This document shows positions 12,678-31,160 of a stretch of 32,598 nt of DNA, in pieces. The DNA comes from Lentilactobacillus sp. Marseille-Q4993. Its GTDB lineage: Bacteria > Bacillota > Bacilli > Lactobacillales > Lactobacillaceae. Where the stretch lies: the NCBI RefSeq assembly GCF_951230165.1, contig NZ_CATNVB010000029.1, forward strand, positions 1 through 32,598, read 5' to 3'. The notes beneath the pieces were generated by a model. That model worked only from the letters and a program-made list of their open reading frames with translations. It searched no databases and had not been told where the DNA came from. Both the position numbers and the translations under genes were made by a program. Position 1 is the first letter of the stretch; the number at the start of each line of letters is the position of its first letter.

Positions 12678-12796
12678 CAATGCCTATCAGTGGTGTCGTT
12701 ATAGTTAGGCGTATTCGCCTTACTATAAGACTCGAGTTTGAAATTTTCGTTTTTTGAAAAGTTCAAACCGATGTCCACCACGTTCCATAGGTATTG
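12678..12796 (+). ncRNA. Structured repeat element A (candidate RNA)
   Basis: A 119-nt fold: stem 1 CAATGCCTAT/ATAGGTATTG, internal loop CA/GTTCC, stem 2 GTGGTG/CACCAC, then two hairpins (ATAGTTAGGCG/CGCCTTACTAT and GTTTGAA/TTCAAAC). Outside stem 1, pairing continues after an A-rich internal loop (ATCGTTC/GAACGAT) to about 12643-12838. Copies B (31042-31160) and C (23410-23524, minus) have the same plan with different paired bases. No promoter is obvious. Whether it acts as RNA or as a DNA hairpin is unknown. Confidence 0.6.
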
Positions 12797-13010
12797 CCAA
12801 AGAACGATACATGGTTCCACGGGTATTGCTAAAGAAATAATTACTGAAAACCGATGTCCACCACGTTCCATAGGTATTGCCAAAGAACGATACATGGTTC
12901 CACGGGTATTGCTAAAGAAATAATTACTGAAAACCGATGTCCACCTGGTTCCATAGGTATTGCAAAACAGCGATACATAGTTCCACAAGTATTGCTTAAG
13001 AAATAAATAC
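12768..13010. repeat. 83-bp tandem repeat, three copies, made from the 3' part of element A
   Basis: Units begin at 12768, 12851 and 12934, each at CCGATGTCCACC. The first two are nearly identical and the third has diverged. Each unit contains two sub-copies of the motif GTTCCA-NN-GGTATTGC (in the third unit as GTTCCATAGGTATTGC and GTTCCACAAGTATTGC), so the locus carries six copies of the element's 3' arm. Confidence 0.85.
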
Positions 13011-13013
13011 ATA

Positions 13014-13047
13014 ATAAAAAGGCCTCTCTCACGTTTCCGTAGGAGGG
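13014..13047 (-). terminator. Terminator of the usp gene
   Basis: On the minus strand, GGCCCCTC and GAGAGGCC (one imperfect pair) enclose a CTACGGAAACGT-like loop, followed by TTTTTATT. Confidence 0.75.
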
Positions 13048-13061
13048 GCCGTCATTAACCA

Positions 13062-13541
13062 TTATTTTTCTGGTGTAATTGGTGAGTTATCAGCATTCGT
13101 CCGAACTACGATAACGTCACAAGTTGCGTTTCTATTTACAAATGAAGAAACTGAACCTTCAAGCACTCGTTGCAACCGGCTCATACCAGTAGCCCCAATT
13201 ACTATCAAATCAGAGTCATGATCCTTTGGAAATTCAAAGGCGATAACCGTCTTGGGATTACCAAATCGAATATGGATGTCGATATCTTCAAAACCAGTTT
13301 CCTTCTTGATTCGGTCAACAAGTTTGTTTAAGTAATCGGTGGTGTCCTCAACTAAGTTGTTGATAACGTCACCATCAACCATTCCACCGTAATTGTAACC
13401 ATATTGTGTGGTGCTAAGAACGTGCAGTACGTCCAAATGAGCACCGTTTACTTTAGCGACCATTGCGGCCTTTGTTAATGCTGTTTCAGCTTGTTTGGAC
13501 CCGTCAACGGGTGCCATAATGTTTGTGTATTGAGCTTCCAT
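13062..13541 (-). CDS. Universal stress protein UspA family
   Basis: A 159-residue single-domain Usp, a cytosolic nucleotide-binding stress protein. I place the start at ATG 13541 (MEAQYTNIMAPVDGS), with GGAGGGG ahead; the frame extends 14 codons upstream without a good site. NIMAPVDGSKQAETAL is the first strand and helix, and GATGMSRLQRVLEGSVSS is the G-2x-G-9x-G-S/T ATP-binding motif, so it should bind ATP. Its promoter shows an extended -10 (TGATATAAT on the minus strand, near 13582-13590). A U-tailed terminator follows. The role in acid or stress tolerance is a family inference. Confidence 0.9.
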   Translation of the reverse strand: MEAQYTNIMAPVDGSKQAETALTKAAMVAKVNGAHLDVLHVLSTTQYGYNYGGMVDGDVINNLVEDTTDYLNKLVDRIKKETGFEDIDIHIRFGNPKTVIAFEFPKDHDSDLIVIGATGMSRLQRVLEGSVSSFVNRNATCDVIVVRTNADNSPITPEK

Positions 13542-13581
13542 GAATCTACCCCTCCGATTTGTATTCGAATTATCTTTGTTC

Positions 13582-13590
13582 ATTATATCA
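13582..13590 (-). promoter_or_regulatory. Extended -10 promoter of usp
   Basis: TGATATAAT reads on the minus strand about 45 nt before the ATG; the -35 region is weak. Confidence 0.5.
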
Positions 13591-13613
13591 CTATGCTTTT
13601 TAAAAACCGATAT

Positions 13614-14117
13614 TTAATTCCTAGAAGGCAAACTAACGACGGCTTCTTCAAGTACGTGGCCGTTCATTTGCTTTTGCATTTCATTCAACCAAAAACCATC
13701 CTTTAGGTCAAGACTAGAATCTAGCGCATAAACGTGGAGATGGTAATCGTGAGTTGCATCAGGTGGCTGAGGACCGTTGTAGCGCCAAGCTGATGCGGGG
13801 TTGGTATTTCCAACCAGACCGCCAGCAGTACTATTAGCCCCTTGAATCATTGGGACAATCAATTTACGACTGTTATCCTCGGGGATCTCTTTTGTGTCAC
13901 CCGGAATGTTGGCTGCGGTCCAGTGAATCCAAGCAAATCCACCAACTGGAATTGCGTCCCAGTCAATTAGTAGCAGGGCAAACGTTTTGGTGTGGGCAGG
14001 GCCGTCTTCAATTGAGATTGGAAATGAAACGATTGGCTTATCATCTAATTTTTCAGTGGCGTGCTTACCATACTTATCAGGTAAGAGGCCATTTTCTAGT
14101 GGAACAGAAATTTTCAT
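13614..14117 (-). CDS. YbhB/YbcL-type phosphatidylethanolamine-binding protein
   Basis: A 167-residue PEBP-family protein, cytosolic by lack of a signal peptide. The ligand-pocket signatures are visible: FALLLIDWDAIPVGGFAWIHW near residues 47-67 (the family's D-x-D-x-P..HW pattern) and YNGPQPPDATHDYHLHVYALD near 112-132 (GPxPPxxxHxY). Family members bind phosphorylated or lipid head groups; no bacterial role is settled. The ATG has GGGAGGAATAAC ahead. It ends 73 nt before the usp start and starts 24 nt after the upstream membrane-protein gene, so the last two may be co-transcribed. Confidence 0.88.
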   Translation of the reverse strand: MKISVPLENGLLPDKYGKHATEKLDDKPIVSFPISIEDGPAHTKTFALLLIDWDAIPVGGFAWIHWTAANIPGDTKEIPEDNSRKLIVPMIQGANSTAGGLVGNTNPASAWRYNGPQPPDATHDYHLHVYALDSSLDLKDGFWLNEMQKQMNGHVLEEAVVSLPSRN

Positions 14118-14141
14118 ATGTTATTCCTCCCTTATTTATCG

Positions 14142-14750
14142 TTATTTTACAAATGTGAGGGTGTAGTATCCTTGACCATTAGTTGTGATCGTGAAGTTGT
14201 TGTAACCAGCCCGGAGCCAGTCAGCTTTGGTTGCTTGAGCCCAATTCCGAGCATCACTTATGGATGCGAAGGTGTGTGGTTGGGTAAACTGATCTGCCGA
14301 AGAGTTGACTTTAGGTTTGGCTGGCTTTTTGTTAGGGATAGTTTTGGATGGAGTTTCATTTAAAATCGATTGCTCATCCTGTTTTACAGATGAATCTTTT
14401 TCGTTGTCAACTTCGGACTGGAATGAACTTCTCTGTTGTGAGGTCAAACCATCGTTGTTGGCTTTACTCAATCGACTTTCGAAACTTTCCACTTTATGAC
14501 TCTCTTCATTGTGGTCTAACTTTTTCTTGATTGTTTTAGTGATTGGTGACTTGTCTGAGCTGCCTTTTTCGTGTTGTTTACCGGCAGACTGTTGAAACCA
14601 ACTAATTCCCAGAGCAATCATCACGGCAACCACGAGAATTAGAACTGCAAACCACCAGCCACGAAAGTTATTTCTCTTTTGGCGCCTGGAGCTATCATCC
14701 TCACTAAAGTCGTATTTTTTATATTGCGGCTTATCATCTTTGTTCTGCAA
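14142..14750 (-). CDS. Single-pass membrane-anchored protein of unknown function
   Basis: 202 residues. The N-terminal 30 or so are charged and hydrophilic and end in RRQKRNNFRG. One membrane helix follows (WWFAVLILVVAVMIALGI, about 31-48), then a long Ser/Lys/Glu-rich low-complexity stretch (50-150). The folded C-terminus is about 50 residues, with PHTFASISDARNWAQATK and then YNNFTITTNGQGYYTLTF. Topology suggests an outward-facing C-terminus. The tail has the size of a small SPOR-like or surface domain, but I do not recognise it. The start is TTG at 14750 with GAGGG 6 nt ahead; no ATG is available. Similar anchored proteins are common in lactobacilli. Confidence 0.7.
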   Translation of the reverse strand: MQNKDDKPQYKKYDFSEDDSSRRQKRNNFRGWWFAVLILVVAVMIALGISWFQQSAGKQHEKGSSDKSPITKTIKKKLDHNEESHKVESFESRLSKANNDGLTSQQRSSFQSEVDNEKDSSVKQDEQSILNETPSKTIPNKKPAKPKVNSSADQFTQPHTFASISDARNWAQATKADWLRAGYNNFTITTNGQGYYTLTFVK

Positions 14751-14821
14751 TGCAATCCCTCATTTTAAATGTGCCTTGAAAGTTTTCGCTATCGCTCTTA
14801 TTATAACAGAATACCAAAAAA

Positions 14822-15295
14822 GTGTATTTTAAGGGTGTGAACGATATCGAAATTAACTTTCAAAAACTTTCGGATTTAGGTGTTATTGAATTATATAACA
14901 TTTATCGGCTCCGGGTCGATGTTTTCGTGGTGGAACAAAATTGTGCTTACCCAGAGGTCGATGATGAAGACCTAACGGCGTATCATTTATCGATGTATGA
15001 GGGAGAACACCTGGTAGCGTATTGTCGGGTTATTCCTAATGATAATCAAACTATTGCTAGGATTGGCAGGGTAATTGTTGCGAAGGAATATCGGCGCAGG
15101 CATCTTGGCAGTGACCTCATAAACGAGGCAATGGATCGGGCTAAAGTAGCGATGCCGAATCTGACTAAGTTTGTCCTGGCAGGGCAGGTTTACGTTAAGG
15201 ATTTTTACCATTCATTCGGATTTAAAGACGTTAGTGATGAGTATCTTGAGGATGGCATTCCTAATATCGACATGGAACTTGATTTGAAAAACTGA
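14822..15295 (+). CDS. GNAT-family acetyltransferase, ElaA-like
   Basis: About 150-157 residues, a cytosolic acetyl-CoA-dependent N-acetyltransferase of the ElaA group. LRVDVFVVEQNCAYPEVDDED is the group's early signature, here at about 30-50. RIGRVIVAKEYRRRHLGSDL is the acetyl-CoA-binding strand and R-R-x-x-G loop, and FYHSFGFKDVSDEYLEDGIP is the C-terminal motif. The substrate is unknown. The start is unclear: there is no ATG, GTG 14822 lacks a ribosome site, and GTG 14837 has AAGGG too close ahead. The pyrP promoter begins immediately after its stop. Confidence 0.83.
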   Translation: MYFKGVNDIEINFQKLSDLGVIELYNIYRLRVDVFVVEQNCAYPEVDDEDLTAYHLSMYEGEHLVAYCRVIPNDNQTIARIGRVIVAKEYRRRHLGSDLINEAMDRAKVAMPNLTKFVLAGQVYVKDFYHSFGFKDVSDEYLEDGIPNIDMELDLKN

Positions 15296-15323
15296 TTGAC
15301 AAGGTTAATCAAACCAGTATAAT
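15296..15323 (+). promoter_or_regulatory. Promoter of pyrP
   Basis: TTGACA (15296-15301), a 16-bp spacer and TATAAT (15318-15323): a near-consensus promoter starting one base after the GNAT stop codon. Confidence 0.8.
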
Positions 15324-15339
15324 TAGTCGTTAAGAAATG

Positions 15340-15440
15340 AATCTTTAACTCTGGTCCAGAGAGACTAGCAAGAACCGATATGAAATGGACATTTTGTGTG
15401 CCCAATAACGCCTATCACTTGCTAGTGGTGGGCGTTTTGT
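15340..15440 (+). promoter_or_regulatory. PyrR-binding attenuator of pyrP
   Basis: The PyrR-binding loop GGTCCAGAGAGACT (about 15354-15366) matches 12 of 14 positions of ARUCCNGNGAGGYU. CTAGCAAG (15365-15372) can pair perfectly with CTTGCTAG (15418-15425) as antiterminator. The competing terminator is AACGCC..AGTG/..GGCGTT (15407-15436), followed by a T-rich tract. With UMP, PyrR should hold the binding loop and allow termination. This is the standard pyr attenuation layout. Confidence 0.88.
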
Positions 15441-15474
15441 TTTGGATTCAAATAATAAAAAGGTGGCACATTTT

Positions 15475-16797
15475 ATGTCGAATCAAAAAGATTATCATGA
15501 CGACGAAGCGTTGTTGGATATTCATGACAAACCCAAGTTTTTCCCTTGGATCGGTCTATCACTCCAACACATGTTTTCAATGTTTGGCTCAACGGTTATC
15601 GTTCCGTTATTGGTGGGATTAAGCCCAAGTATTGCGTTGTTCTCATCTGGTGTCGGAACGTTGCTTCACATCATGATTACTCAGCGAAAGATTCCTGCCT
15701 ACATGGGATCAAGTTTCGCATTTATTTTACCAATGACGGCTTTGATGAAGACGACTGGATATCCAGGAATCGCTCAAGGGGTTGTTGGAGTTGGTTTGGT
15801 ATACCTATTGGTCGCAGCGATTATCTGGGCAATTGGTTCTGCGTGGGTTGATAAAATATTGCCACCAATCGTTGTTGGACCAATTGTTATGGTTATCGGT
15901 CTTTCACTCGCTGGAAGTGCCGCTCAAGATGCCATGATGAAAGACGGTAAGTACAGTTTGACCTACTTCTTGATTGCATTAGCCACATTATTCTTAGCTA
16001 TTTTCTTCAATATGGTTTTCAAAGGCTTTATTGGTTTGATTCCAGTTCTACTTGCAATTGTCTGTGGATACTTACTATCTGTCTTTTGTGGCTTGGTTGA
16101 TTTACATGCCATTGCTGCAGCATCTTGGTTTAAGATTCCGCAATTTGAATTCCCAGGTATTTCATATAAGTTCAAGCTAAACTGGGGTGCGATTATGTCG
16201 ATTGCCCCAATTGCGTTTGTCACGATGACTGAGCACATGGGTCACATCATGGTGCTTGATGAATTGACTCACAGAAACTTTTTCAAGGATCCAGGTTTGA
16301 ACAGAACCCTTGCTGGTGACGGTGCTGCATCACTTTTTGCTGGATTAGTTGGTGGTCCTGCGGTTACTAGTTACGGCGAAAACATTGGGGTTATGGCAAT
16401 TACGAAGATTCACAGTGTGTACGTATTGATGGGTGCAGCTGTCTTTGCAATTATCTTCTCCTTTGTTCACAAACTAAACGTGTTGATTATGCAAATGCCA
16501 TTGCCTGTTATCGGTGGAATTAGTTTCCTATTATTTGGAACGATTGCCACTTCCGGAATTCAGGTTATGGTTGAAAACAAAGTTGATATGGGCTTGAAGC
16601 GAAATTTAATGATTGCTTCCTCAGTTATGGTTATTGGAGTTGGTAATGCCTATCTTCAACTTGGTGATTTCCAATTTACCGGACTTGCTTTTGCAACGAT
16701 TATCGGAATTGTTCTTAACCTTGTATTGCCACAGAAGGCTGCGAGTGAGAAGGAGCATGAGATGAGGTTGGCGCGTAAGGCGGCGGGAAAGGATTAG
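15475..16797 (+). CDS. pyrP: Uracil permease (NCS2/NAT family)
   Basis: Uracil:proton symporter in the cytoplasmic membrane, 440 residues and roughly 14 helices. The start is ATG 15475 (MSNQKDYHDDEAL) with AAGGTGG at 15460-15466; the in-frame TTG 15442 lies in the terminator tail. Family marks are GLSLQHMFSMFGSTVIVP in helix 1, SSFAFILPM, and GGPAVTSYGENIGVMAITK, the NCS2 signature around helix 10 with a Glu typical of uracil transporters. TMTEHMGH contains the substrate-binding Glu. PyrR control upstream supports uracil as substrate. It is followed by a repeat-family hairpin and then a terminator. Confidence 0.92.
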   Translation: MSNQKDYHDDEALLDIHDKPKFFPWIGLSLQHMFSMFGSTVIVPLLVGLSPSIALFSSGVGTLLHIMITQRKIPAYMGSSFAFILPMTALMKTTGYPGIAQGVVGVGLVYLLVAAIIWAIGSAWVDKILPPIVVGPIVMVIGLSLAGSAAQDAMMKDGKYSLTYFLIALATLFLAIFFNMVFKGFIGLIPVLLAIVCGYLLSVFCGLVDLHAIAAASWFKIPQFEFPGISYKFKLNWGAIMSIAPIAFVTMTEHMGHIMVLDELTHRNFFKDPGLNRTLAGDGAASLFAGLVGGPAVTSYGENIGVMAITKIHSVYVLMGAAVFAIIFSFVHKLNVLIMQMPLPVIGGISFLLFGTIATSGIQVMVENKVDMGLKRNLMIASSVMVIGVGNAYLQLGDFQFTGLAFATIIGIVLNLVLPQKAASEKEHEMRLARKAAGKD

Positions 16798-16807
16798 AGT
16801 GTGAGGG

Positions 16808-16852
16808 AGTGAGACAGAAAGCATACGAAGATGCTTTCGATGTCTCACCCCC
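16808..16852 (+). repeat. Repeat-family hairpin after pyrP
   Basis: GTGAGACA/TGTCTCAC encloses AAGCAT/ATGCTT. It is nearly identical to the hairpin after the aldo/keto reductase (477-516) and lies in the same orientation relative to its gene. Confidence 0.6.
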
Positions 16853-16855
16853 GCG

Positions 16856-16935
16856 AGACCGACAGTAACTGAGGACCATGAATAGTGGTCCTCAGTCCTG
16901 ACGGTTACTGCGTGTAGCAAGGATTTGGATAAAAG
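16856..16935 (+). repeat. 3'-UTR cruciform element, copy after pyrP
   Basis: A perfect stem ACTGAGGACCA/TGGTCCTCAGT surrounds TGAATAG, then CTGACGGTTACTGCGTGTAG and TTTGGATAAAA. It has the same order as after the aldo/keto reductase and gntP. The stem bases differ from those copies while pairing is kept. Confidence 0.7.
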
Positions 16936-16938
16936 CAA

Positions 16939-16990
16939 AGAATGCAGCAATAAATTTCACGAAACTGAAATTTATTACTGCATTTTTTCG
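16939..16990 (+). terminator. Terminator of pyrP
   Basis: AATGCAGCAATAAATTTC pairs with GAAATTTATTACTGCATT (one mismatch) around ACGAAACT, followed by TTTTT. Confidence 0.85.
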
Positions 16991-17079
16991 ATATGTGAAC
17001 TATTTAGTATCTTAATATTTTATAGGCGCATGGAATTGAAACTCCGAACACGTTTTTTGCTGGCCTTTCATAGTTTTAA

Positions 17080-18402
17080 CTACTCCGCACGTTCCGTCCG
17101 CTTAATATCCGCTCTCATATCCCTCACTAATAATGGCAAGAATAACAAAATGTAGATAAACAAAAATAGTCCCGTACTAATGAAAATATACGCACCATTA
17201 CTGATGAATTTAAAAGCAAATGTAAACAACAATGATCCTAGTGGCGAGATGCAAGTTACAAGGGCAATAAACGTTGACATTACGCGCCCTAGCATGTGGG
17301 TTGGTACCGTTAGCTGCATGTAAACAGAACTGGAAATATTAAGCACTGAATTGAATACCCCGGCGGTTGCCAGAGTTCCAGAACAGAGAACCGTAAAGAG
17401 CAGTGGAGTGGTGTAAGTTAGGTTGAAAATTCCAATTAAGAAAATTGCCACACTCATGATTACAAGTGGAATTACGATTTTAACTAGCAGATGTTTCCTA
17501 CCTGGAAAGATGCTGAGCAAAATGCTCCCGGCCAAAATTCCTGCTGAAAAGAAACCGTCTATGATACCGACGGCTGAATTGCCAGCGTGAATTTGGTGGA
17601 CGATTGTATATGGAAGGCCAACCGTGACCGCAACAAATAGAAAATTAATCATGCAGGCAATCAAGATAAGGTCTCTCATCATTTTTCGATTGAGGATATA
17701 ATGAAGCCCCTCCATGAATTGAGTGAGCTGATTTTTCAGAGAGTTATTGGTTCTTGAGATACTCTTGTTTTCGTTGCGTTGATAGTGAAACTTCATTGAA
17801 AGAGTTATTCCAAGCCAAGCAATTGAAGCAATGATTGAAATTAAGACAAATGTGTCAAATTTAACTGCAGAGTATAGAGCAACACCAACAATTGGAGCAA
17901 GAACTGATGATAGGGAAGAAGCTGACTGAGTCAGTGATCCTAACCGGGGGATGAAGTCTGGACTTACCAATTCTTTCACGGAGGCGGTGTAGGCAGTGGT
18001 TGAAAAGTTTCCGGTTGTAGAAAGGATAACTAGCAGGATGGCCACCGGAACTAGTTTTGAGAAACCGGAAAAATAGTCAATTGTAAGCCAAAATATTGTC
18101 AAAGCGATAATCTTTATTAAAGAACAAAAAATGATGATTCGTTTGTGGGGATACCGATCAGTAATATTACCAACGGGGATCATCGTTAAAATACTAACAA
18201 TTGGCGTAATTGCGGACTCTAGGCCAAACGCAATTGGTGAATGGGTCTCACTTAATAACATCAGCCCGAGGGCGAGCGAAAACATTCCGCTACTAAACGA
18301 GCTGATTAGATTGCCAGTAACGTCTTTCACGATTTGAACTTTTGATTCTGATACAGTGATTGCTTGAATGGTTGAGTTTTCCGGATCAACATTGTTTGTC
18401 AT
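17080..18402 (-). CDS. MFS transporter (MFS_3-type exporter)
   Basis: A 440-residue, 12-helix major facilitator resembling the MFS_3 / enterobactin-exporter-like group, a probable drug or metabolite exporter. The start is ATG 18402 (MTNNVDPENS), with AAGGTG 6 nt ahead. IPVGNITDRYPHKRIIIF in loop 2-3 is MFS motif A, with the Asp and basic residues present. It is divergent from a winged-helix gene at 18515; the 112-nt spacer holds a palindrome. This suggests local regulation, but the substrate cannot be told. Confidence 0.83.
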   Translation of the reverse strand: MTNNVDPENSTIQAITVSESKVQIVKDVTGNLISSFSSGMFSLALGLMLLSETHSPIAFGLESAITPIVSILTMIPVGNITDRYPHKRIIIFCSLIKIIALTIFWLTIDYFSGFSKLVPVAILLVILSTTGNFSTTAYTASVKELVSPDFIPRLGSLTQSASSLSSVLAPIVGVALYSAVKFDTFVLISIIASIAWLGITLSMKFHYQRNENKSISRTNNSLKNQLTQFMEGLHYILNRKMMRDLILIACMINFLFVAVTVGLPYTIVHQIHAGNSAVGIIDGFFSAGILAGSILLSIFPGRKHLLVKIVIPLVIMSVAIFLIGIFNLTYTTPLLFTVLCSGTLATAGVFNSVLNISSSVYMQLTVPTHMLGRVMSTFIALVTCISPLGSLLFTFAFKFISNGAYIFISTGLFLFIYILLFLPLLVRDMRADIKRTERAE

Positions 18403-18428
18403 ATTGGACACCTTCAAAAAATAATTAT

Positions 18429-18448
18429 CGTTAAAAATAATTTTAACG
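18429..18448. promoter_or_regulatory. Palindromic operator candidate between MFS and regulator genes
   Basis: CGTTAAAA-ATAA-TTTTAACG, 8 bp each side. Next to it are two direct copies of an ACGTTNNATAT-like block about 20 bp apart (18446 and 18465). It is a good candidate target for the divergent winged-helix protein. Confidence 0.5.
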
Positions 18449-18514
18449 TTGATATGAATTTAGACGTTTGATATTATTTTGTCAAGAGCATATTATGAAT
18501 TCGAGGTGAAATAA

Positions 18515-19093: not shown

Positions 19094-19111
19094 GGGTATA
19101 GATTCAAAAAA

Positions 19112-19150: not shown

Positions 19151-19159
19151 CTTTTGATT

Positions 19160-22678: not shown

Positions 22679-23188
22679 TTATTTAAATGCTGATAGGGAC
22701 TGACGAAGTTTGGCCACGATTGCGGCTGTGTCTTCTGGGTAAGTTAGCGCTTCTTTGATTGCTTGATGGCTGAGAATTGCAATTGACCATATCTTGGGGG
22801 GCATGGTCGATTGACTCTTGATCATCTTTTCATCGCTATAAACCATTTCGTTGTATTGGTAGTGCAGCTTGAGTAAGTTGTAATACTGACTGTTGGTCAC
22901 GTTAGCAACAAACCGTTCAACTGAGTTTGCGTATTCTTCAGGATCAGTTGTTTTATAATCCGGAATGTCTTTGTGAAAGTTGATCATCGCCTTTTTGAAG
23001 ATGAAGCCGTAAGCATCCGTTAAATCTTCAAAGTATTTGTAAAACGCACCGCGGGCGATTCCGGCTGATTTGATGATTCGTGCTACTTGAGATTGCTCGA
23101 GGGGGTGTTCGGAAAACTCTTTTAGTAAGGCGTCTTCGATGAGTTGTTGTTTGTCGGGGTTAAGGTTTTCAAAGGTTGTGCTTGGCAT
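22679..23188 (-). CDS. hrtR: TetR-family regulator, HrtR-like haem sensor
   Basis: 169 residues. The start is ATG 23188 (MPSTTFENLNPDK) with GAGGTG ahead. The N-terminal helix-turn-helix spans about 12-58 (QVARIIKSAGIARGAFYKYFED). The rest is the helical ligand and dimer domain. His72 (INFHKDIP) sits at the same number as one haem ligand I recall for lactococcal HrtR (H72, H149); His141 (LSHQAI) is a candidate for the second. Two palindromes of the HrtR type bracket its promoter, so it should repress its own operon until haem binds. Confidence 0.83.
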   Translation of the reverse strand: MPSTTFENLNPDKQQLIEDALLKEFSEHPLEQSQVARIIKSAGIARGAFYKYFEDLTDAYGFIFKKAMINFHKDIPDYKTTDPEEYANSVERFVANVTNSQYYNLLKLHYQYNEMVYSDEKMIKSQSTMPPKIWSIAILSHQAIKEALTYPEDTAAIVAKLRQSLSAFK

Positions 23189-23210
23189 GTAAGCACCTCG
23201 TTTCTTTCTG

Positions 23211-23227
23211 AGTGACACCGTGTCACT
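23211..23227. promoter_or_regulatory. HrtR-type operator 1
   Basis: AGTGACAC-C-GTGTCACT is a perfect 17-bp palindrome just downstream of the predicted start of transcription. The core TGACACnGTGTCA equals the lactococcal HrtR operator core as I recall it. Confidence 0.78.
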
Positions 23228-23241
23228 TATTGATTGGTTAT

Positions 23242-23270
23242 ATCATAGCAGGGTGGTGACACCGTGTCAA
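23242..23270 (-). promoter_or_regulatory. Promoter of hrtRBA
   Basis: Minus strand TTGACA (23270-23265), 17 bp, TATGAT (23247-23242). The -35 box lies inside operator 2. Confidence 0.82.
23256..23270. promoter_or_regulatory. HrtR-type operator 2
   Basis: GTGACAC-C-GTGTCAA repeats operator 1 with one arm base changed. Its centre is 44 bp from that of operator 1, and it covers the -35 box. Confidence 0.75.
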
Positions 23271-23320: not shown

Positions 23321-23365
23321 GAAATGATGCTTATCACAACTTATATTGACCTTGGAACGCTGTGC
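23321..23365 (-). repeat. Extra copy of the 3' arm of element C
   Basis: Matches the 3' arm of element C (the minus-strand block with GCGTTCCAAGGTCAATAT) with a few changes, about 68 bp away. Reiteration of the 3' arm is also seen at element A. Confidence 0.7.
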
Positions 23366-23388
23366 AAGCAACATTTTATTTACGGTAA

Positions 23389-23545
23389 GAAATAATGCTC
23401 ATCACAACTCATATTGACCTTGGAACGCCATGGGGATAGGTTTGAGCCTGTAGTCTCAAACTCTACCCTTGTTCTAACCAAGCTTATAGCTTGGAAGAAC
23501 AATTTCATGGCTGAAGGTCATATGAGTTAATGTGATTCGCATTTC
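23389..23545 (-). ncRNA. Structured repeat element C (candidate RNA)
   Basis: On the minus strand the core (23524-23410) folds as: stem 1 CATATGACCTT/AAGGTCAATATG, internal loop CA/GTTCC, stem 2 GCCATG/CATGGC, hairpin 1 TTGTTCTTCCAAGCT/AGCTTGGTTAGAACAA, hairpin 2 GTTTGAG/CTCAAAC. Stem 1 goes on outward through AACT/AGTT and TCACA/TGTGA blocks to 23389-23545. It follows elements A and B in order and loop sequence but not in stem sequence. Confidence 0.6.
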
Positions 23546-23663: not shown

Positions 23664-23712
23664 CTTAGTATCTAATTCGTATTAACATTCAAAAATAACT
23701 TGTAGGGGATGT

Positions 23713-24486: not shown

Positions 24487-25372
24487 TGCGGGTTGCCCCC
24501 TTTGCGATAGTTCTTCTTACTTTGAAGCGTTTTTCAAACGCGGGAAACATCATGAAGATTGCGAGAACGATTGCTGAAATGAGGTTCAGGTCGTTTGCGT
24601 TGAAACCGAGTTGAAGCACGATGAGGATAACAAACCGGTAAAGAATACTACCAATTGTTACGGCAATTAATCGCTCATTCATCGTCAACTCACCGAACAC
24701 GACTTCGCCGATAATAATAGAAGCAAGGGCGACAACGATGATTCCAATTCCCATGTTAACGTCCGCAAAACCATTGTTTTGAGCAACCAAAGCACCACCG
24801 AGGGCGATAAATCCGTTTGATACGGAAAGACCCATAATTTGCATGGTATCGGTGCTGATTCCCAGGGACTTTGCCATGACGGGATTATCACCAGTAGCGA
24901 TAAATGCTTGGCCAAGGTTAGTTTGGAGGAAGTAGATTATTAGTCCTGTCACCACAAAGATTACTAACATGCCTAAGAAAACGCTGTTGAAATAGGGTGG
25001 GAGACCTTTGAATGAATCAAGCAAGGTGGACTTACCATATAATGATAAGTTTGCTCGGCCCATGATTCTAAGGTTGATTGAATAAGCAGCGGTCATGGTC
25101 AAAATCCCGGCAAGTAGCACGGGAATCTTGCCCTTGGTATAAAGCAAACCGGTGACCAGTCCAGCCAGCATTCCAACAATCATTGCTAGGAGGGTTGCGA
25201 GAATTGGTGGCACGCCGTTGTAAATAGCGGCCACGCAGGTAGCTGCTCCCATTGGGAATGTTCCTTCAACGGTCATATCAGGGAAATCAAGAATCCTAAA
25301 TGTTAGGAATAGGCCGATACCAACGACACCCCAAGTGAGGCCCTGGCCAATTGCAGATACGATTATACTCAT
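24479..25372 (-). CDS. ABC transporter permease (TrpXYZ-type, COG4120 class)
   Basis: A 297-residue LivH-like (BPD_transp_2) permease with 8-10 membrane helices; IGLFLTFRILDFPDMTVEGTF, here read in pieces, marks the start, and GDNPVMAKSLGISTDTMQIM is the cytoplasmic loop that should touch the ATPase. It overlaps the binding-protein gene by 4 nt and the ATPase gene by 8 nt, so translation is probably coupled. The starts of both downstream genes lie inside the preceding gene. Confidence 0.85.
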   Translation of the reverse strand: MSIIVSAIGQGLTWGVVGIGLFLTFRILDFPDMTVEGTFPMGAATCVAAIYNGVPPILATLLAMIVGMLAGLVTGLLYTKGKIPVLLAGILTMTAAYSINLRIMGRANLSLYGKSTLLDSFKGLPPYFNSVFLGMLVIFVVTGLIIYFLQTNLGQAFIATGDNPVMAKSLGISTDTMQIMGLSVSNGFIALGGALVAQNNGFADVNMGIGIIVVALASIIIGEVVFGELTMNERLIAVTIGSILYRFVILIVLQLGFNANDLNLISAIVLAIFMMFPAFEKRFKVRRTIAKGATRNE

Positions 25373-26379
25373 TTGACGATTTCTCCTTTCGCTTTGGCTT
25401 CCTTCATTAAACTAGCGGGGATGGTAATGCCCATCTTATCAGCCTGTTTTTTATTGATGATCAATTTACCGTGGGTGAAGTATTTGATTGGGGTAGTGGC
25501 TGGTTTCTTATTACCCTTGAGAATCTGGGCACTCATTTTACCAGTTGCAACACCAAGTTTATATTGGTCAACCCCGTAAGTAGCAACGCCCCCGTCACGA
25601 ACCATTGTGTCAACGGCTGGAAATACCGGAACTTTAGCTTGGTTAGCAGCTCCGACTAAGGTCTGCATTGCTCCAGCTATCGTGTTGTCGGTAGGTACGT
25701 AAATGGCATCGACTGAGTTAACGGCTTGCTGAGCTACTTGGTTTAAATCATTGGTGTTCGAAATTGAGTAAGCTTTAAGCGGAATCTTTTCTTGTTTACA
25801 GATTTTTTTGAACATTTTGTACTGAGCGACCGCCGAATCATCACTAGAGGTATAGATGATTCCGAGGGTTTTCATCTTCGGCATTAGTTTTTTGATCAAA
25901 CCAAGTTGTTCTTTCAATGGGGCCTGGTCAGAAACACCGGTAATATTACCCCCAGGGCGTTTGTTATTCTTAACTAAGTTAGCTCCCTTTGGGTCGGTGA
26001 TGGCACCCAGAATGATGGGCTTATCTTTGATGGAATTGGCGAGTGACTGAGCAGATGGGGTGGCAATTCCGATTGATAAATCAAGGTTTTCGTTGGCAAA
26101 CTTACTACTCATTGTTTTCAAATTACTCTGGTCGTTCTGAGCGTTTTGAAAATCAATTTTGATGTTCTTGCCAGGGGTATATCCCTCCTGCTTTAGGCCG
26201 GCGATGATTCCCTTGTGGATTGAATCAAGGGCGGGGTGGGACATCAACTGGAGAATGCCAATCTCCGGGGTTTTCTTAGCTGGCTTAGCCATTTGCGATT
26301 TCTCGTTAACAAAGGCGTAACCCAAGAATGCGAATAAAATAATGATGGCGATTAAAAGTGGGTAACTACGTTTTTTCAT
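25369..26379 (-). CDS. ABC substrate-binding protein (PF04392, TrpX-like)
   Basis: 336 residues, a periplasmic-binding-protein-like type I fold with EIGILQLMSHPALDSIHKGI at the start of the mature part and IYVPTDNTIAGAMQTLVGAA in the middle, both typical of this family. The N-terminus (KKRSYPLLIAIIILFAFLGYAF, split here) has a hydrophobic helix but no Cys lipobox, so it is probably held by an uncleaved anchor instead of lipid. GGAGAG precedes the ATG. It is first in a three-gene operon with overlapping genes. Ligand: aromatic amino acid by family label; not proven. Confidence 0.83.
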   Translation of the reverse strand: MKKRSYPLLIAIIILFAFLGYAFVNEKSQMAKPAKKTPEIGILQLMSHPALDSIHKGIIAGLKQEGYTPGKNIKIDFQNAQNDQSNLKTMSSKFANENLDLSIGIATPSAQSLANSIKDKPIILGAITDPKGANLVKNNKRPGGNITGVSDQAPLKEQLGLIKKLMPKMKTLGIIYTSSDDSAVAQYKMFKKICKQEKIPLKAYSISNTNDLNQVAQQAVNSVDAIYVPTDNTIAGAMQTLVGAANQAKVPVFPAVDTMVRDGGVATYGVDQYKLGVATGKMSAQILKGNKKPATTPIKYFTHGKLIINKKQADKMGITIPASLMKEAKAKGEIVK

Positions 26380-26419
26380 TCCAATCTCTCCTTAAAAAAT
26401 TTTCTAACTTGATATGAAA

Positions 26420-26451
26420 AAAGAGCAACTCGCTAGGCCGAGTTGCTCTTT
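26420..26451 (-). terminator. Leader terminator before the TrpXYZ-type operon
   Basis: AAGAGCAACTCG/CGAGTTGCTCTT with a GCCTAG-type loop, then six T on the minus strand. It lies between the promoter and the first gene, so it is an attenuator unless read through. Confidence 0.85.
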
Positions 26452-26455
26452 TTGC

Positions 26456-26630
26456 TGCCGGCCTGCGGTTCGTTACTGAACAGGCCTCTTTATTGAAGAT
26501 TACCGGTTCAGATGCGTCTTTTATCATCGCAAAAGATCAAGTCGCATCTGTCCGTTTCCGTAGACGTAACTTGATTACCGGCTTTGCCAACTTCTGATTG
26601 TAATCAATTTTTCCATGGGATAATCTTCCT
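26456..26630 (-). promoter_or_regulatory. Unrecognised structured leader RNA
   Basis: Minus-strand pairings: outer stem GAAGATTA/TAATCTTC (26628-26621 with 26502-26495); CAGATGCG/CGCATCTG (26550-26543 with 26516-26509) enclosing TCTTTT/AAAAGA; ATCAAGT/ACTTGAT (26575-26569 with 26542-26536), which interlocks with the former as a pseudoknot or alternative; and GGCCTGTTC/GAACCGCAGGCC before the terminator. I do not find T-box, SAM, lysine, purine, TPP, FMN or c-di-AMP signatures. Confidence 0.55.
26575..26616 (-). CDS. Leader peptide candidate of 13 residues with one Trp codon
   Basis: ATG..TAA encodes MEKLITIRSWQSR. A proper ribosome site AAGGAAG lies 9 nt ahead, and it sits between promoter and leader terminator of the TrpXYZ-type operon. 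The Trp codon is tenth. The ribosome site overlaps one arm of the outer leader stem and the last codons overlap an alternative pairing arm. It could be a true attenuator peptide or a chance short frame. Confidence 0.4.
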   Translation of the reverse strand: MEKLITIRSWQSR

Positions 26631-26649
26631 TTCGTATTAGATGTATTTA

Positions 26650-26679
26650 ATAATAATCTAACAAATTGGACAGTGTCAA
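26650..26679 (-). promoter_or_regulatory. Promoter of the TrpXYZ-type operon
   Basis: Minus strand TTGACA (26679-26674), then TATTAT or TTATTA (26656-26650) at 18 or 17 bp. The leader would be about 260 nt. Confidence 0.7.
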
Positions 26680-26775
26680 GAACAGAATTTGTTGTTTATT
26701 GACGAAAATTAAGGCAAAAAAGGGTAAATATCGAAATGTTTTTCGATAATCGGTCTAAGTAAAAGCTTAAAATGA

Positions 26776-26902
26776 GCAAAACACGAACATTAAACTGAAT
26801 TTAATTGAAAAGCACCTTGTAAAATCGAAAAAATCGTTTTATACTTAATTCATTCTTTTACGAACTATTGAAATTCGACCATATTTAATGTTCGGGTTTT
26901 GC
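26776..26902 (+). promoter_or_regulatory. PurBox-like sites around the guaD promoter
   Basis: Box 1 ACACGAACATTAA (26781-26793) and box 2 TTTAATGTTCGGG (26884-26896, opposite strand) are part of a 19-bp inverted repeat with one mismatch. A third, weaker site TTTTACGAACTAT lies at about 26857-26869. All resemble the PurR consensus AWWWCCGAACWWT. The genes they precede handle purines. Confidence 0.65.
26817..26845 (+). promoter_or_regulatory. Promoter of the guaD-permease operon
   Basis: TTGTAA (26817-26822), 17 bp, TATACT (26840-26845); flanked on both sides by PurBox-like sites. Confidence 0.7.
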
Positions 26903-26923
26903 TAATAATCGGAGGCGATTTGC

Positions 26924-27004
26924 ATTAAAGAATCAACTATTATTGAGGGAAGTTATTATTCATCAAGTAATTCCAATAGCGTCACATTCAAACAAAAGGC
27001 ATAG
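26924..27004 (+). pseudogene. 5' fragment of guaD ending in an in-frame TAG
   Basis: GGAGG (26911-26915) is followed 8 nt later by ATT AAA GAA, opening a 26-codon frame (IKESTIIEGSYYSS...FKQKA) that stops at TAG 27002-27004, exactly in frame with the guaD frame that resumes at GTG 27005. The residues look like the normal first strands of a guanine deaminase. Either ATT is a rare start and TAG a nonsense mutation, or the gene is expressed in two parts, or the sequence has errors. Confidence 0.6.
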
Positions 27005-28264
27005 GTGTGCATCACTAACGGTGTTATCGACCAAATCGTTGAACCGAGCGATGATAAATATCTTGCAATTAGGCGTCAAGCCGAGGAAGCCAACGAGTTG
27101 ATCGTGCTAAGCGAGAACCAATTCTTATTACCAGGGTTCATTGATCTTCACGTTCATGCCCCTCAGTGGCCTAACGCGGGGGTGGCCTTAGACAAACCGC
27201 TTAATGAATGGCTCAATGATTATACGTTTCCACTTGAAGCTAAGTTTGAAGATACCGAGTTTGCTAGCAAGGTCTACCACAATCTAGTTGAAGAACTGAT
27301 TGCTGAAGGAACTACCACCGTTCAGTATTTTGGAACGATATATAAGGACAGCAATCTTGAACTTGCCAAAGCGTGTATCGATGCTGGTCAGCGAGGTTTC
27401 ATCGGCCAGGTGGTCATGGATAACAAGGAAGAGTCGCCTGATTATTACCGGAACGAAAGCGGTGATGAGGCGGTTGAAAGTACCAAGCAGTTTATCGCTG
27501 AACTAGCAAAGCTTAATCAAGACGGTGCTGTTAAACAAACGCCTGTCATTACGCCGAGATTCTTACCGAGCTGTACGATTCCAACGCTCAAACGATTGGG
27601 AAAGCTAGCCCAAGAATTAGACTTACCGATTCAATCCCACTGTAGCGAGAGTGACTGGGAAAATGGTTATGCCATCGAGCATTATGGCAAACGAGATTCA
27701 GCAGTGCTTGAAGAGTGTGGCTTGTTGACGGCTAACTCGGTAATGGCTCACGGAACGCTACTTAATGATGAAGATTTGGATCGATTCAAGCATCGCCAAG
27801 TTGCCGTTGCCCACTGTCCGGTATCGAACGTCTACTTCGGTAATGCAGTGACAAAGGTTCGCCAAATCCTTGATTCTCACGTTAAAGTGGGAATGGGAAC
27901 TGATATTTCTGGTGGCTTTTCACCAAGTATTTACCGGAATATCAGCCAGGCGGTGATGTCATCCCGAATGTTGGCTGATGGAGTCGATAGTGATTTGGAC
28001 CCAGCCGACCGAGGAGTTGCCAACAGTGCAATTTCCGCCAAAGAAGCATTTTACCTAGCAACCGCAGGTGGAGCCGAGGCCTTGAACCTAAACGCCGGCA
28101 AAATTGAAGTGGGAAAGCTAGCTGATTTACAAGTTGTTAGTTCCGCCTATCCATCCTTCACCAAGGAAAGTTCTGATGATAGGTTTGAAAAATTAATGTA
28201 CCAAACGACGAAGGCAAACGTCGACCGCGTTTTTGTAAACGGAAAGCAAGTAAAGGGAGAATAA
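27005..28264 (+). CDS. guaD: Guanine deaminase, N-terminus interrupted
   Basis: Converts guanine to xanthine and ammonia; a zinc amidohydrolase of the cytosol. The catalytic barrel is whole: PGFIDLHVHAPQWPNAG carries the HxH pair, then HCSESDWENG, AHGTLLNDEDL, AHCPVSNVYFG and GMGTDISGG supply the further His and Asp ligands. The frame opens at GTG 27005 straight after an in-frame TAG and lacks its own ribosome site; the true gene should begin about 27 codons earlier. Loss of the first strand of the small beta domain may impair the enzyme. It is followed 6 nt later by a purine permease. Confidence 0.85.
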   Translation: MCITNGVIDQIVEPSDDKYLAIRRQAEEANELIVLSENQFLLPGFIDLHVHAPQWPNAGVALDKPLNEWLNDYTFPLEAKFEDTEFASKVYHNLVEELIAEGTTTVQYFGTIYKDSNLELAKACIDAGQRGFIGQVVMDNKEESPDYYRNESGDEAVESTKQFIAELAKLNQDGAVKQTPVITPRFLPSCTIPTLKRLGKLAQELDLPIQSHCSESDWENGYAIEHYGKRDSAVLEECGLLTANSVMAHGTLLNDEDLDRFKHRQVAVAHCPVSNVYFGNAVTKVRQILDSHVKVGMGTDISGGFSPSIYRNISQAVMSSRMLADGVDSDLDPADRGVANSAISAKEAFYLATAGGAEALNLNAGKIEVGKLADLQVVSSAYPSFTKESSDDRFEKLMYQTTKANVDRVFVNGKQVKGE

Positions 28265-28270
28265 ACAGTA

Positions 28271-29638
28271 ATGAGAAAAGATAACGGTTTACTTTACGGA
28301 CCAGAAGACAAGGTTTCATATTTCCAATCAGGACTATTAGGATTGCAACACGTACTTGCAATGGACGTGTACGTGCCACCGTTGATCATGGCAGGATTAT
28401 TATCAATGACCTTGGGCCAAAAGACTGGTTTCTTACAAGCAGCATTTCTAGCCTGTGGGATCGGAACGATTTTGCAAACTAAGTTCTTTATGAAATTACC
28501 AGTATCTCAAGGACCTTCATTCGTTCCAATTGGTGCGGTAGCTGGTGTATACGCTGCCTATGGTGCTGGTAACGGCGGAATGGCCACGGTACTTGGTTCT
28601 CTGATTATCGGTTCGCTAGTCTTGATTGCGTTAGGGGCTTCTGGAATTTACCAAAAAGTGATCAACGCATTGGTGCCAGCTATCGTTGGTGGAACCATCA
28701 TTACCTGTGTTGGGTTGTCATTATTACCAACTGCTTTAAACGACAATATTTTCAACGCAACTGGTAACATTAATCAAAATATCGAAATTGCTTCAATTAC
28801 CGCAATCACAATGTTAGTTGCAATCACCATTGGAATTCGCATTCCTCAATTACAACGATTATTCAGAGTTAGTTCAATTGTTATTGCATTAGTTGCCGGA
28901 ACAATCGCTGCTTCAGCAATGGGTAAGTTTGATTGGTCATCAGTTAGCAAGGCTGCCTGGTTCAGTTTGCCTAAATTCACAGCATTCCATTACGGAGTGC
29001 ACTTCTCATTACCAGCAATTTTAACTTTTATCGTTATTTACATGGTGTTGACTACTGAAACTACTGGTACTTGGTTTGCAATGAGTGCCGTGGTTGATGA
29101 AAAGATTTCCAAGAAACAATGGAACCAAGGAATCATCGGTGAGGGCCTTAGCTGTCTTGTATCAGCTGTGCTTGGGGCTACTCCAATGACTGGTTACTCA
29201 ACCAACGCCGGGGTGGTTTCAATTACCGGAGTTGCCAGCAAGCGGGTCTTCGTTTCAGCCGGAATCTGGTTCATCATTCTTGGATTCTTTGGCAAACTAT
29301 CTGCATTCTTGTCAGCCGTTCCCGCTCCAGTGATCGGTGGTATCTTTGCCATCATCTGTGTCATCATTATGCTTAATGGTTTGAACGTTATCAGAAAGAT
29401 TGAAACAACTGAAAGTACCCTTTATGTTCTTGGTATTCCAATCGTTTTGACAATGGCAACTGTGCTCTTGCCTTCAAAGGTAACAACTGAATTGCCACAA
29501 ATGGTTCAATACTTGTTGGGTTCGCCAATCACGGTTGGTGCCATCAGTGCGATTATCCTTAACATAGTTATGGGTAGTGGATCAAAAGAAGAAAAAGTAG
29601 CAAAAAAACCCGTGGCTAAGGTCGCGGAAGCAAAATAG
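28271..29638 (+). CDS. NCS2/NAT purine permease
   Basis: A 455-residue nucleobase:cation symporter with about 14 helices. SGLLGLQHVLAMDVYVPPLI, SQGPSFVPIGAVAGVYAA and TPMTGYSTNAGVVSITG are family signatures; VLTTETTGTWFA holds the substrate-binding Glu. The partner guaD and the PurBox-like sites point to xanthine or guanine as substrate, unlike the uracil permease at 15475. The tail is Lys/Ala-rich. The start is ATG 28271, 6 nt after guaD, with GGGAGAA in the end of guaD as ribosome site. Confidence 0.88.
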   Translation: MRKDNGLLYGPEDKVSYFQSGLLGLQHVLAMDVYVPPLIMAGLLSMTLGQKTGFLQAAFLACGIGTILQTKFFMKLPVSQGPSFVPIGAVAGVYAAYGAGNGGMATVLGSLIIGSLVLIALGASGIYQKVINALVPAIVGGTIITCVGLSLLPTALNDNIFNATGNINQNIEIASITAITMLVAITIGIRIPQLQRLFRVSSIVIALVAGTIAASAMGKFDWSSVSKAAWFSLPKFTAFHYGVHFSLPAILTFIVIYMVLTTETTGTWFAMSAVVDEKISKKQWNQGIIGEGLSCLVSAVLGATPMTGYSTNAGVVSITGVASKRVFVSAGIWFIILGFFGKLSAFLSAVPAPVIGGIFAIICVIIMLNGLNVIRKIETTESTLYVLGIPIVLTMATVLLPSKVTTELPQMVQYLLGSPITVGAISAIILNIVMGSGSKEEKVAKKPVAKVAEAK

Positions 29639-29645
29639 TTTATGA

Positions 29646-29672
29646 GGCTATCCAGAAATGGATAGTCTTTTT
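29646..29672 (+). terminator. Terminator of the guaD-permease operon
   Basis: GGCTATCCA/TGGATAGTC with a GAAA loop and five T. Confidence 0.85.
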
Positions 29673-29719
29673 AATACCATTCCAGCAACGTTTTTTGGTA
29701 GACTTGAGGTAATAAATGA

Positions 29720-29977
29720 ATGGGGATGAAACGAATGGCAGACGATAACTTAAAGGAATTCACTAAGGAAGAATTAGCTCAGTATGACGGCAATGGTGTG
29801 CGGGCTTACGTTGCAATTGACGGGATCGTTTACGATGTTACCAAGGAAGAGTCTTGGGAATACGGTAAGCATTATGGTCAATTAGCAGGCCGTGACTTAT
29901 CTAAGGAAATTGAGGGTACCCCTCATGGTAAGTCGATTTTAGGCAAACTGCCGATTGTTGGTAAGTTGGTGGATTAA
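29720..29977 (+). CDS. Cytochrome b5-like haem/steroid-binding domain protein
   Basis: An 80-85-residue single-domain protein: FTKEELAQYDGNGVRAYVAI, then DGIVYDVTKEESWEYGKHYG, then AGRDLSKEIEGTPHGKSILG. This is the b5-like pattern found in many Firmicutes, with two His (about 54 and 69 from the first Met) in place of the classic HPGG pair. It may bind haem or a hydrophobic ligand. No signal peptide. GAGG lies 10 nt before ATG 29720; ATG 29735 is an alternative. It is monocistronic with its own terminator. Confidence 0.82.
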   Translation: MGMKRMADDNLKEFTKEELAQYDGNGVRAYVAIDGIVYDVTKEESWEYGKHYGQLAGRDLSKEIEGTPHGKSILGKLPIVGKLVD

Positions 29978-29984
29978 TTGTTAT

Positions 29985-30025
29985 GCGGTAGCTCTCAGAA
30001 AATTCTGTGGGGGTACCGCTTTTTG
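29985..30025 (+). terminator. Terminator of the cytochrome b5-like gene
   Basis: GCGGTA/TACCGC outer stem and CAGAA/TTCTG inner stem, followed by TTTTTG. Confidence 0.8.
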
Positions 30026-30107
30026 TTTGTCCAAAAGCTAAAAATTCTCTAATCACATACTGATTAACAATGGAAAAGTAGTATGCTAAACATGAGGTGA
30101 TTTTTAA

Positions 30108-30812
30108 ATGAAAATTGAATCAGTTTCACTTGAAGAGAAAAATAGTTCTTTAGATATGTACATTAGTAATTCGGATGTTAAGTTGCCCGGAATTGTAATC
30201 ATTGCCGGTGGTAGCTACAATCCAATCAAGGAACGGGACTCCGAACGAGTTGCCTTATCGTATGCTACTCACGCTTACCAGGCATTTGTTGTTCAGTACC
30301 CAGTTGGTGAGAACAAGAGTTACGCTACAGCAAAAGTGGCTATTGCTCAATCGTTTGATTACATAGTGAGCCACGCTGACGAACTCAATGTTGATACTGA
30401 TAATTTGGGGATCATTGGGTTTTCAGCTGGTGGCCAGCTTGCTGCGGCATACGCAAATAGTGAAGGCAATCATGCCAAGTTTGAAATTCTAGGATACCCC
30501 GTTATTAAACCAACGTTGGATGAAAAGATGGGCGTTACAACTGAGGATGTCAGCAAGATGGTATCTGCTAATACTCCTCGGACATTTATCTTTGGATCAA
30601 TCAATGATGAACTGACGCCGTTTGGTAACCATATTTTGAGCTATGTGCAAGAGCTTGATAAGAATAACGTTAAGTTTGAATTGCATGAGTTTGGAACGGG
30701 TAATCACGGAATTAGTTTAGCTAATAAGTACACTGGAATTGTGAATGGTGACCGGACTGATGAGCACTTTTCAAAGTGGTTTGAGTTGAGCGTTGACTGG
30801 TTAAATAATTAG
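30108..30812 (+). CDS. Alpha/beta hydrolase, esterase-type
   Basis: 234 residues, cytosolic, close to the BD-FAE/Axe1-like carbohydrate or small-ester hydrolases. GIVIIAGGSYNPIKERDSER holds the oxyanion loop (GGSY in place of HGGGW). The nucleophile elbow is GFSAGG (about Ser106). The acid is probably Asp in INDELTP, and the His lies in GNHGIS. The ribosome site is GAGGTG. The substrate is unknown; acetylated sugars are possible. No operon partner; the following 445 nt are repeat-rich and non-coding. Confidence 0.85.
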   Translation: MKIESVSLEEKNSSLDMYISNSDVKLPGIVIIAGGSYNPIKERDSERVALSYATHAYQAFVVQYPVGENKSYATAKVAIAQSFDYIVSHADELNVDTDNLGIIGFSAGGQLAAAYANSEGNHAKFEILGYPVIKPTLDEKMGVTTEDVSKMVSANTPRTFIFGSINDELTPFGNHILSYVQELDKNNVKFELHEFGTGNHGISLANKYTGIVNGDRTDEHFSKWFELSVDWLNN

Positions 30813-31041
30813 AGTGCTGAGCTTCTCGGTTGACTTCGAGCATTAATAAAAAAATGGGGTTGAGCAAACGAAGTGCGCAAAGCCATTTTTGAAATTAAGC
30901 GGAGGAGTCAGAGAAGGGAAGCCGATTTAAGCTAGAGTGCTAAGCTTCTCGGGAGTTACCGATAATTAAGCCAGATTTTTTGAGCGAGCAAACGAAGAGC
31001 TGATCCTTTCGGAAGTTGCCGACACCAAAGCCATGAAAAAG

Positions 31042-31160
31042 CAATACTTATCAGCCCTGTCGTTGTTGTTAGCCATTTATGGCTTACTACAAGACCAGAC
31101 TTTGAGACTTTTGGTTTGTAAAAGGCTCAAAGCTGTGTCCAGGGCGTTCCATAAGTATTG
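31042..31160 (+). ncRNA. Structured repeat element B (candidate RNA)
   Basis: 119 nt, the same length as element A: stem 1 CAATACTTAT/ATAAGTATTG, internal loop CA/GTTCC, stem 2 GCCCTG/CAGGGC, hairpin 1 GTTGTTAGCCAT/ATGGCTTACTAC, hairpin 2 CTTTGAG/CTCAAAG. Past an A-rich internal loop, GCCAT/ATGGC pairs outside stem 1. A U-tailed terminator lies 42 nt downstream on the same strand, which would suit a small RNA. Confidence 0.62.

Follow-up and report, generated by a model that had tools for sequence, protein, structure and literature searches.

The window analysed here, the 32,598-nt contig NZ_CATNVB010000029.1 of Lentilactobacillus sp. Marseille-Q4993, carries three copies of a folded element of about 120 nt, which we call the unit, and these three loci were found to be genuine members of a large family of mobile structured repeats. 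With a probability of about one half, the repeats are mobile structured elements of Lactobacillaceae in which the unit forms a three-way-junction module at the ends of small transposons. The identity of the unit as a transposon-associated structured module is well supported; its mode of action is what we infer. An earlier note on the letters of this DNA had taken the three copies for either a non-coding RNA family or a mobile hairpin element.

The three copies (E1, E2, and E3; Table 1) are located between the long open reading frames (ORFs) of the window. The single secondary structure that the earlier note had assigned to all of them was recovered by folding, as were the positions of stem 1, the CA/GTTCC internal loop, stem 2, and both hairpins. 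Compared with 200 dinucleotide shuffles per locus, the folds of E1 (-50.3 kcal/mol, z -9.7), E2 (-48.3 kcal/mol, z -6.2), and E3 (-51.3 kcal/mol, z -7.7) were equaled by none of the shuffles, and the reverse complements folded nearly as stably. Two cores measure 119 nt, as had been stated, and the third measures 115 nt. Outside stem 1, the window copies have a further stem of some 10 bp, and among the copies of this genome the shared sequence stops about 15 nt beyond the core.

Further copies in the window's genome were located by blastn, and a covariance model, R1, was constructed from ten of this genome's copies. R1 scored E1, E2, and E3 at 128.3, 128.9, and 85.0 bits, respectively, E1 itself being among the sequences used to build the model. 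In a MAFFT alignment of the ten copies, 29 of the 47 pairs had changed on both sides, and 44 of the 47 had done so in 56 copies from many genomes, confirming the compensatory changes noticed earlier. The 56-copy alignment, drawn from 43 selected loci with E values of 1e-20 or lower, was fitted to the covariance model and thus leans toward the structure. Standard pairs occupied 98.4% of its 2613 pair cells versus 68.7% after shuffling, and the covariation score was 0.784 versus 0.198, with none of 500 shuffles as high; when the partners were slid by 1 to 3 columns, the score was at most 0.107. Selection on structure, as the earlier note had proposed, is therefore supported by very strong covariation, with the caveat that exchange between copies may explain part of it.

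While the stems change in sequence, several unpaired letters are nearly constant. Among 118 distinct units, the two letters of CA were conserved in 99 and 100%, those of GTTCC in 97 to 99%, the T·T mismatch of hairpin 1 in 95 and 99%, the A·G mismatch of hairpin 2 in 97 and 98%, and a bulged T in 96%. The CA/GTTCC loop, which had been called invariant, is thus close to fixed in these units and is accompanied by three further fixed features, but it is missing from a subfamily in genome G347, whose copies that were read (L323-L330) have an extra hairpin and a continuous lower stem.

The family extends far beyond the window. R1 found 17 matches at E < 0.001 in the window's genome, one partial and one weak (28.7 bits), and, with at most nine candidates scored per genome, matches in 123 of 397 Lactobacillaceae genomes and 15 of 40 genera; the search thus brought many more copies that keep the pairing. 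Of the 24 genomes examined from the genus to which the window belongs, 3 carried the unit. With a broader covariance model, R2, at E 1e-4, the unit was detected in 21 of 345 genomes of an order sample, every one of them Lactobacillaceae, and in 1 of 348 genomes of a phylum sample, namely the window's own, so that no unit outside Lactobacillaceae was found in these two scans. Copy numbers reached 103 in G163 and at least 145 in G347 (150 candidates scored), and were 22 in G348 and 30 in G357. An exact-pattern scan had among its matches listed Companilactobacillus, Lacticaseibacillus, Schleiferilactobacillus, Lapidilactobacillus, Lactiplantibacillus, and Pediococcus, as well as metagenome-assembled genomes (MAGs) labelled Lactobacillus and Limosilactobacillus. 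One contig of a Bacteroidetes-labelled MAG (L132) also had an exact match to the 24-letter pattern, possibly by chance or mis-binning. Separately, G025, from another family of the order, gave 15 weak R1 matches at E 0.01 (L031, L033, L035-L045; about 139 nt, 25 to 29 bits), which suggests a different structured repeat.

Many copies are bare units between genes, and others lie in short transposon-like elements. In G163, close pairs of units were head-to-head in 26 of 26 cases, at a spacing of 88 to 351 nt, and the full element starts with GGTTCTTTCTTAA, continues through a unit, a centre with a long hairpin, and a second unit, and ends in TTAAGAAAGAACC. Head-to-head order was also observed in 15 loci with two nearby units (one from G163); the exceptions were G347, with 5 of 8 pairs head-to-head, and G117, with adjacent same-strand units. 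In those forms with terminal repeats that were read, the 3' side of the unit faces the nearer terminus, and hence paired units stand head-to-head. Three loci that seemed at first sight to hold single units (L079, L082, and L097) are G163-type elements with the other unit internally deleted. Terminal inverted repeats were found in elements of G135, G163, and, in part, G087. At L051, AAAAATAA on either side forms an 8-bp target duplication, and the insertion site is empty in C. suantsaicola (L222); the C. suantsaicola site corresponding to L047 (L183) is likewise without the unit, and no clear duplication was seen there. Duplications of 7 to 8 bp, offset by one letter, flank L081 and L079, and no clear ones flank L082 and L075. 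The G135 elements combine GGYTCT-like terminal repeats with 8-bp duplications, perfect at L230, matching in 7 of 8 positions at L229 and L233, and not clear at L232. Around 61 loci, no transposase was recognised by reading the 15 largest ORF clusters, with no protein-library search made; the top clusters resembled translated repeat DNA.

The unit also occurs inside autonomous insertion sequences (ISs). Searching plasmids with L046 gave matches in 4 of 72,556 records, and R2 confirmed all four, two strongly and two at 54 to 57 bits. These rare plasmid copies (L333-L336) are from L. paracasei, L. brevis, and L. plantarum, and no feature is listed beneath the matched stretch in the PLSDB gene table, which is incomplete. 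In the L. brevis and L. plantarum plasmids L334 and L335, the unit lies within a complete ISLre2-family IS; in L334 the IS ends are at 950 and 2684, with the transposase gene at 1063-2460 and the unit at 2492-2606. Chromosomal ISLre2 copies in G348 (L338) and G357 (L339) have the same arrangement, and all four elements carry the unit in sense, after the transposase stop codon and ahead of the right terminal repeat. When six G087 loci were matched loosely, an ISLre2-like left end was found in three, a right end in four, and both in two. Three features of miniature inverted-repeat transposable elements (MITEs), namely terminal repeats, target duplications with an empty site, and ends in common with an autonomous IS, are present in the family. 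These transposon ends, duplications, the empty site, and the copies inside ISLre2 elements support the mobile hairpin element of the earlier note. No plasmid match was obtained by blastn with the L075 composite, E1, or L080, and no phage match with L075 or L046.

ISL3-family ISs were compared as a second possible partner. Over 28 letters, the G135 ends had 16 to 19 in common with those of an ISL3-family IS of G163, compared with 17 between the two ends of that IS itself, and the inner end sequences of the G163 and G087 elements differ from ISL3. Inspection by eye of the ISL3 ends that were read revealed no unit, and the end comparison identified no autonomous partner for the G163 forms or for those of the window's genome. 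That genome has one ISL3 gene, and an ISLre2 transposase was not found in it.

On the favoured explanation, the module would belong to the ends of small transposons, comprising ISLre2 ISs and short transposase-less elements. The short forms may be mobilised in trans by transposases, of the ISLre2 type in Lacticaseibacillus and perhaps of the ISL3 type in other genera, and the module would help in cis by folding as single-stranded DNA. The spread of many copies over the family, in every orientation to genes, and the small surplus of G·U over A·C are in line with this explanation. The CA/GTTCC loop, the T·T and A·G mismatches, and the bulged T would be the letters read by a putative binding protein. 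We favour the cis role as single-stranded DNA on four grounds: the unit is retained by short derivatives, it turns its 3' side to the terminus, it has few wobble pairs, and its asymmetric unpaired letters are held constant. The copies of the window's genome look like old, stripped remnants of an earlier spread, since they are without the ISLre2 transposase, terminal repeats, and visible duplications. A wider version, which we consider quite improbable, would have the module be a transposon-encoded structure read in folded, single-stranded form, as RNA or DNA, by the machinery of more than one IS family, ISLre2-type and possibly ISL3-type. IS200/IS605 and IS110 elements have structured non-coding ends, and the module would then be a functional analogue of these.

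In the four ISLre2 elements the unit directly follows the transposase gene on the same strand, which could also mean that it acts as RNA, as a 3'-end structure that protects, processes, or damps the transposase mRNA and does likewise on host mRNAs with which bare copies are co-transcribed, an effect of the kind reported for ERIC and NEMIS. Two other ISLre2 ISs (L356 and L358) carry unrelated long hairpins at the equivalent place, which fits this alternative, as does the strong covariation. Strong folding past the transposase gene was also seen at L351, L360, and L361, possibly inside the IS; L357 was left out of this comparison of downstream folds because the locus is cut by a contig end. In the pair cells of the 118 units, G·U pairs exceeded A·C mismatches (78 versus 48, p 0.0095), and the surplus was larger in other, overlapping sets (43:19, 16:2, and 38:13), so that folding would appear to take place on the strand given here. 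For an RNA, however, G·U is rare despite the strongly covarying helices, at 1.4% of cells (A·C, 0.9%) versus 8 of 148 in a small control of seven distinct tRNAs from the same DNA. Furthermore, the excess was absent from sense units, which the upstream gene would transcribe (34:26), and present in antisense units (22:9). Orientation to genes is mixed too: with the unit taken as plus and ORFs from a crude caller, the flanking genes of 73 loci were both plus in 27, both minus in 20, convergent in 16, and divergent in 10. A leader or riboswitch was rejected on account of this mixed orientation. In the 118-unit set, in which orthologs from two species are counted twice, both plus outnumbered both minus by 52 to 24. 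We hold a role as RNA to be possible, with less than even chances, and the non-coding RNA family of the earlier note is not established, as copies stand in every orientation to genes and G·U is rare.

Covariation might instead come mostly from exchange between copies and from hairpin-templated repair that rewrites both arms, with neutral spread of the copies. Here the genomes G348 and G357 are informative. By their flanks, 21 of 22 G348 units could be placed at a G357 locus that also has a unit, three of them (L276, L286, and L311) from one flank only; L282 could not be placed, and L292, the partner of L284 in a pair, falls on the locus that holds the ortholog of L284. In 20 G348/G357 pairs, 841 of 940 pair cells were unchanged, and the changed ones comprised 33 double Watson-Crick changes, 26 between Watson-Crick and mismatch, 14 between Watson-Crick and G·U, 5 double changes with a mismatch, 3 others, and 18 gapped cells. 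This pattern looks like selection on structure. The surplus of double Watson-Crick changes over single changes to G·U or to a mismatch is nevertheless what arm-rewriting repair would leave, and 9 of 20 G348 units were closer to a non-orthologous unit than to their ortholog, G348 paralogs being 84% alike on average. Set against this, the asymmetric unpaired letters are 95 to 100% fixed in the 118 units, where arm-copying repair would erase them, and the family covers 15 genera. We consider exchange and repair, with neutral spread, an unlikely main source of the covariation.

The same orthologous sites could reflect bare units adopted by the host for a local job at each site, such as at mRNA 3' ends or in chromosome organisation. 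In 19 aligned pairs, the units were 92.7% identical with 2.3% gap columns, whereas the adjacent 20 to 120 nt of flank were 75.1% identical with 21% gaps; at 120 to 300 nt, which is partly coding, identity was 88%. On contig C1 of G163, moreover, 55 of 77 insertions lay in the chromosome half around the assumed origin. G347 had no such bias, with 76 of 137 insertions in the half around its origin, likewise assumed. The patchy occurrence of the unit in the family (3 positive genomes out of 24 in the window's genus), the lack of a preferred gene orientation, and possible concerted change also speak against local host use, which appears improbable to us. The strand of single units relative to replication (21:30 in G163 and 49:80 in G347) was not used, the origins being assumed. 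Separately, L050 and L055, an orthologous site in two species, hold an element that is inverted between its outer repeats, with collinear flanks and a diverged centre.

Several results weigh against the transposon-end module itself. The copies of the window's genome displayed neither terminal repeats nor a visible target duplication, and the four ISLre2 copies with the unit had no clear target duplication. Among 32 ISLre2-related loci scanned, 4 had a strong and 2 a weak (23 bits) unit match and 26 had none, so that the transposase does not need the unit; in several of the loci without a match the right end follows soon after the stop codon. For an empty site within ISLre2, L351 and L354 offered no exact site, their transposases being 45% identical to that of L338. 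At the genome level, ISLre2 and the unit did not track each other (unit in 10 of 27 genomes with ISLre2 versus 113 of 370 others, taking two draws of 397 genomes as one set), and most units have no adjoining ISLre2 gene. A strict ISLre2-unit link was rejected on this ground, and these results count against a strict requirement for the unit; a strict ISL3-unit link was likewise rejected, because G087 and G120 have no ISL3. With so few G·U and A·C mismatches, moreover, the preference for one strand is weak.

Being palindromic, intergenic, and paired head-to-head, the repeats would also suit the REP/BIME type, which a Y1 (RAYT) transposase mobilises. The corresponding domain, PF01797, was found in 2 of 8 unit-bearing genomes, and it was absent from the window's genome and from G163 with its 103 copies, where mobilisation by RAYT is thus refuted. 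This explanation is hardly credible for the family as a whole. Integron attC sites have an R box of GTTRRRY, which the invariant GTTCC misfits, and they were set aside on that ground, with no integrase search made.

Table 1. Copies of the unit and their adjoining repeats in the window
Feature	Position	Strand	Basis
Copy E1, core (stem 1, CA/GTTCC loop, stem 2, three-way junction with two hairpins)	12678-12796	+	fold and R1 match
E1 including outer stem (12662-12671 with 12802-12810)	12662-12810	+	sequence; limit of homology within the genome
Three tandem 83-nt repeats, starting within the 3' half of E1	12765-13013	+	repeat analysis
Copy E3, core	23410-23524	-	fold and R1 match
40-nt repeat of the E3 3' end, spacing 68 nt	23321-23428	-	repeat analysis
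Copy E2, core	31042-31160	+	fold and R1 match
E2 including outer stem (31027-31034 with 31168-31174)	31027-31174	+	sequence; limit of homology within the genome

E1 and E3 have part of their 3' portion duplicated alongside the copy. Such half-unit repeats occurred downstream in 6 and upstream in 4 of 15 copies of the window's genome and in 0 of 106 elsewhere; being confined to this genome, they were rejected as a general mark of the family. A mechanical ORF of 118 aa (12656-13012, minus strand) that spans E1 and its repeats was not taken as a gene. Apart from the unit, two identical 14-nt inverted-repeat-like sequences (GTGACACCGTGTCA) lie at 23212-23225, where a TetR-like ORF (22679-23218, minus strand) starts, and at 23256-23269, a short way upstream of it, and they look like candidate operator sites of this TetR-like regulator. 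Just upstream of E2, an imperfect direct repeat with a spacing of about 123 nt (30810-30846/30933-30969 and 30862-30876/30986-31000) is not related to the unit.

The earlier note had recognised no known family in these copies, and this still stands. None of 4227 Rfam families matched the window at the gathering threshold, and permissive scans gave low-scoring, chance-level matches; in 18 unit-bearing loci, Rfam gave four matches, none at the positions of the unit pattern. Searches of open-access literature brought up no description of the unit, which may nevertheless have been described under a different name or in a journal that requires a subscription.

Strong covariation, orthologous sites, an in situ inversion, and an autonomous carrier IS come together in this one family. 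It would offer, in harmless food bacteria, a way to test whether interspersed palindromes are parasitic, have been domesticated, or arise through hairpin-templated repair.

Among known systems, ISLre2 ISs are related as carriers of the unit in four cases and through the matching ends of some G087 short elements, although most of the ISLre2 loci scanned are without it; ISL3 ISs share GGYTCT ends and 8-bp duplications with the G135 short elements, and the ISL3 ends read are without the unit. BOX, RUP, and SPRITE of S. pneumoniae, as described in PMC3049150, resemble the unit in being short, intergenic, and foldable, with about 100 copies per genome, MITE features, and low present activity, BOX and RUP having terminal repeats and target duplications. 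By the same account, they are almost confined to the pneumococcus and S. mitis, whereas the unit spans 15 genera of one family; it further differs in sequence and host, in its three-way junction and fixed unpaired letters, and in lying inside an autonomous ISLre2 IS. ERIC, NEMIS/Correia, and other small bacterial repeats, as described in PMC2229807, are likewise intergenic, structured, and MITE-like, with reported effects on mRNAs through RNase III or RNase E. The unit is unlike these in sequence and host, and it forms part of transposon ends, where paired copies have their 3' sides outward. A passage of PMC2267715 lists stem-loop clusters for Lactobacillus johnsonii with no link to the unit. 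The kind of element is thus already known from BOX, ERIC, RUP, and NEMIS, whereas the unit family looks new, and its shape, family-wide spread, carrier IS, and outward geometry are apparently new as far as the literature was searched.

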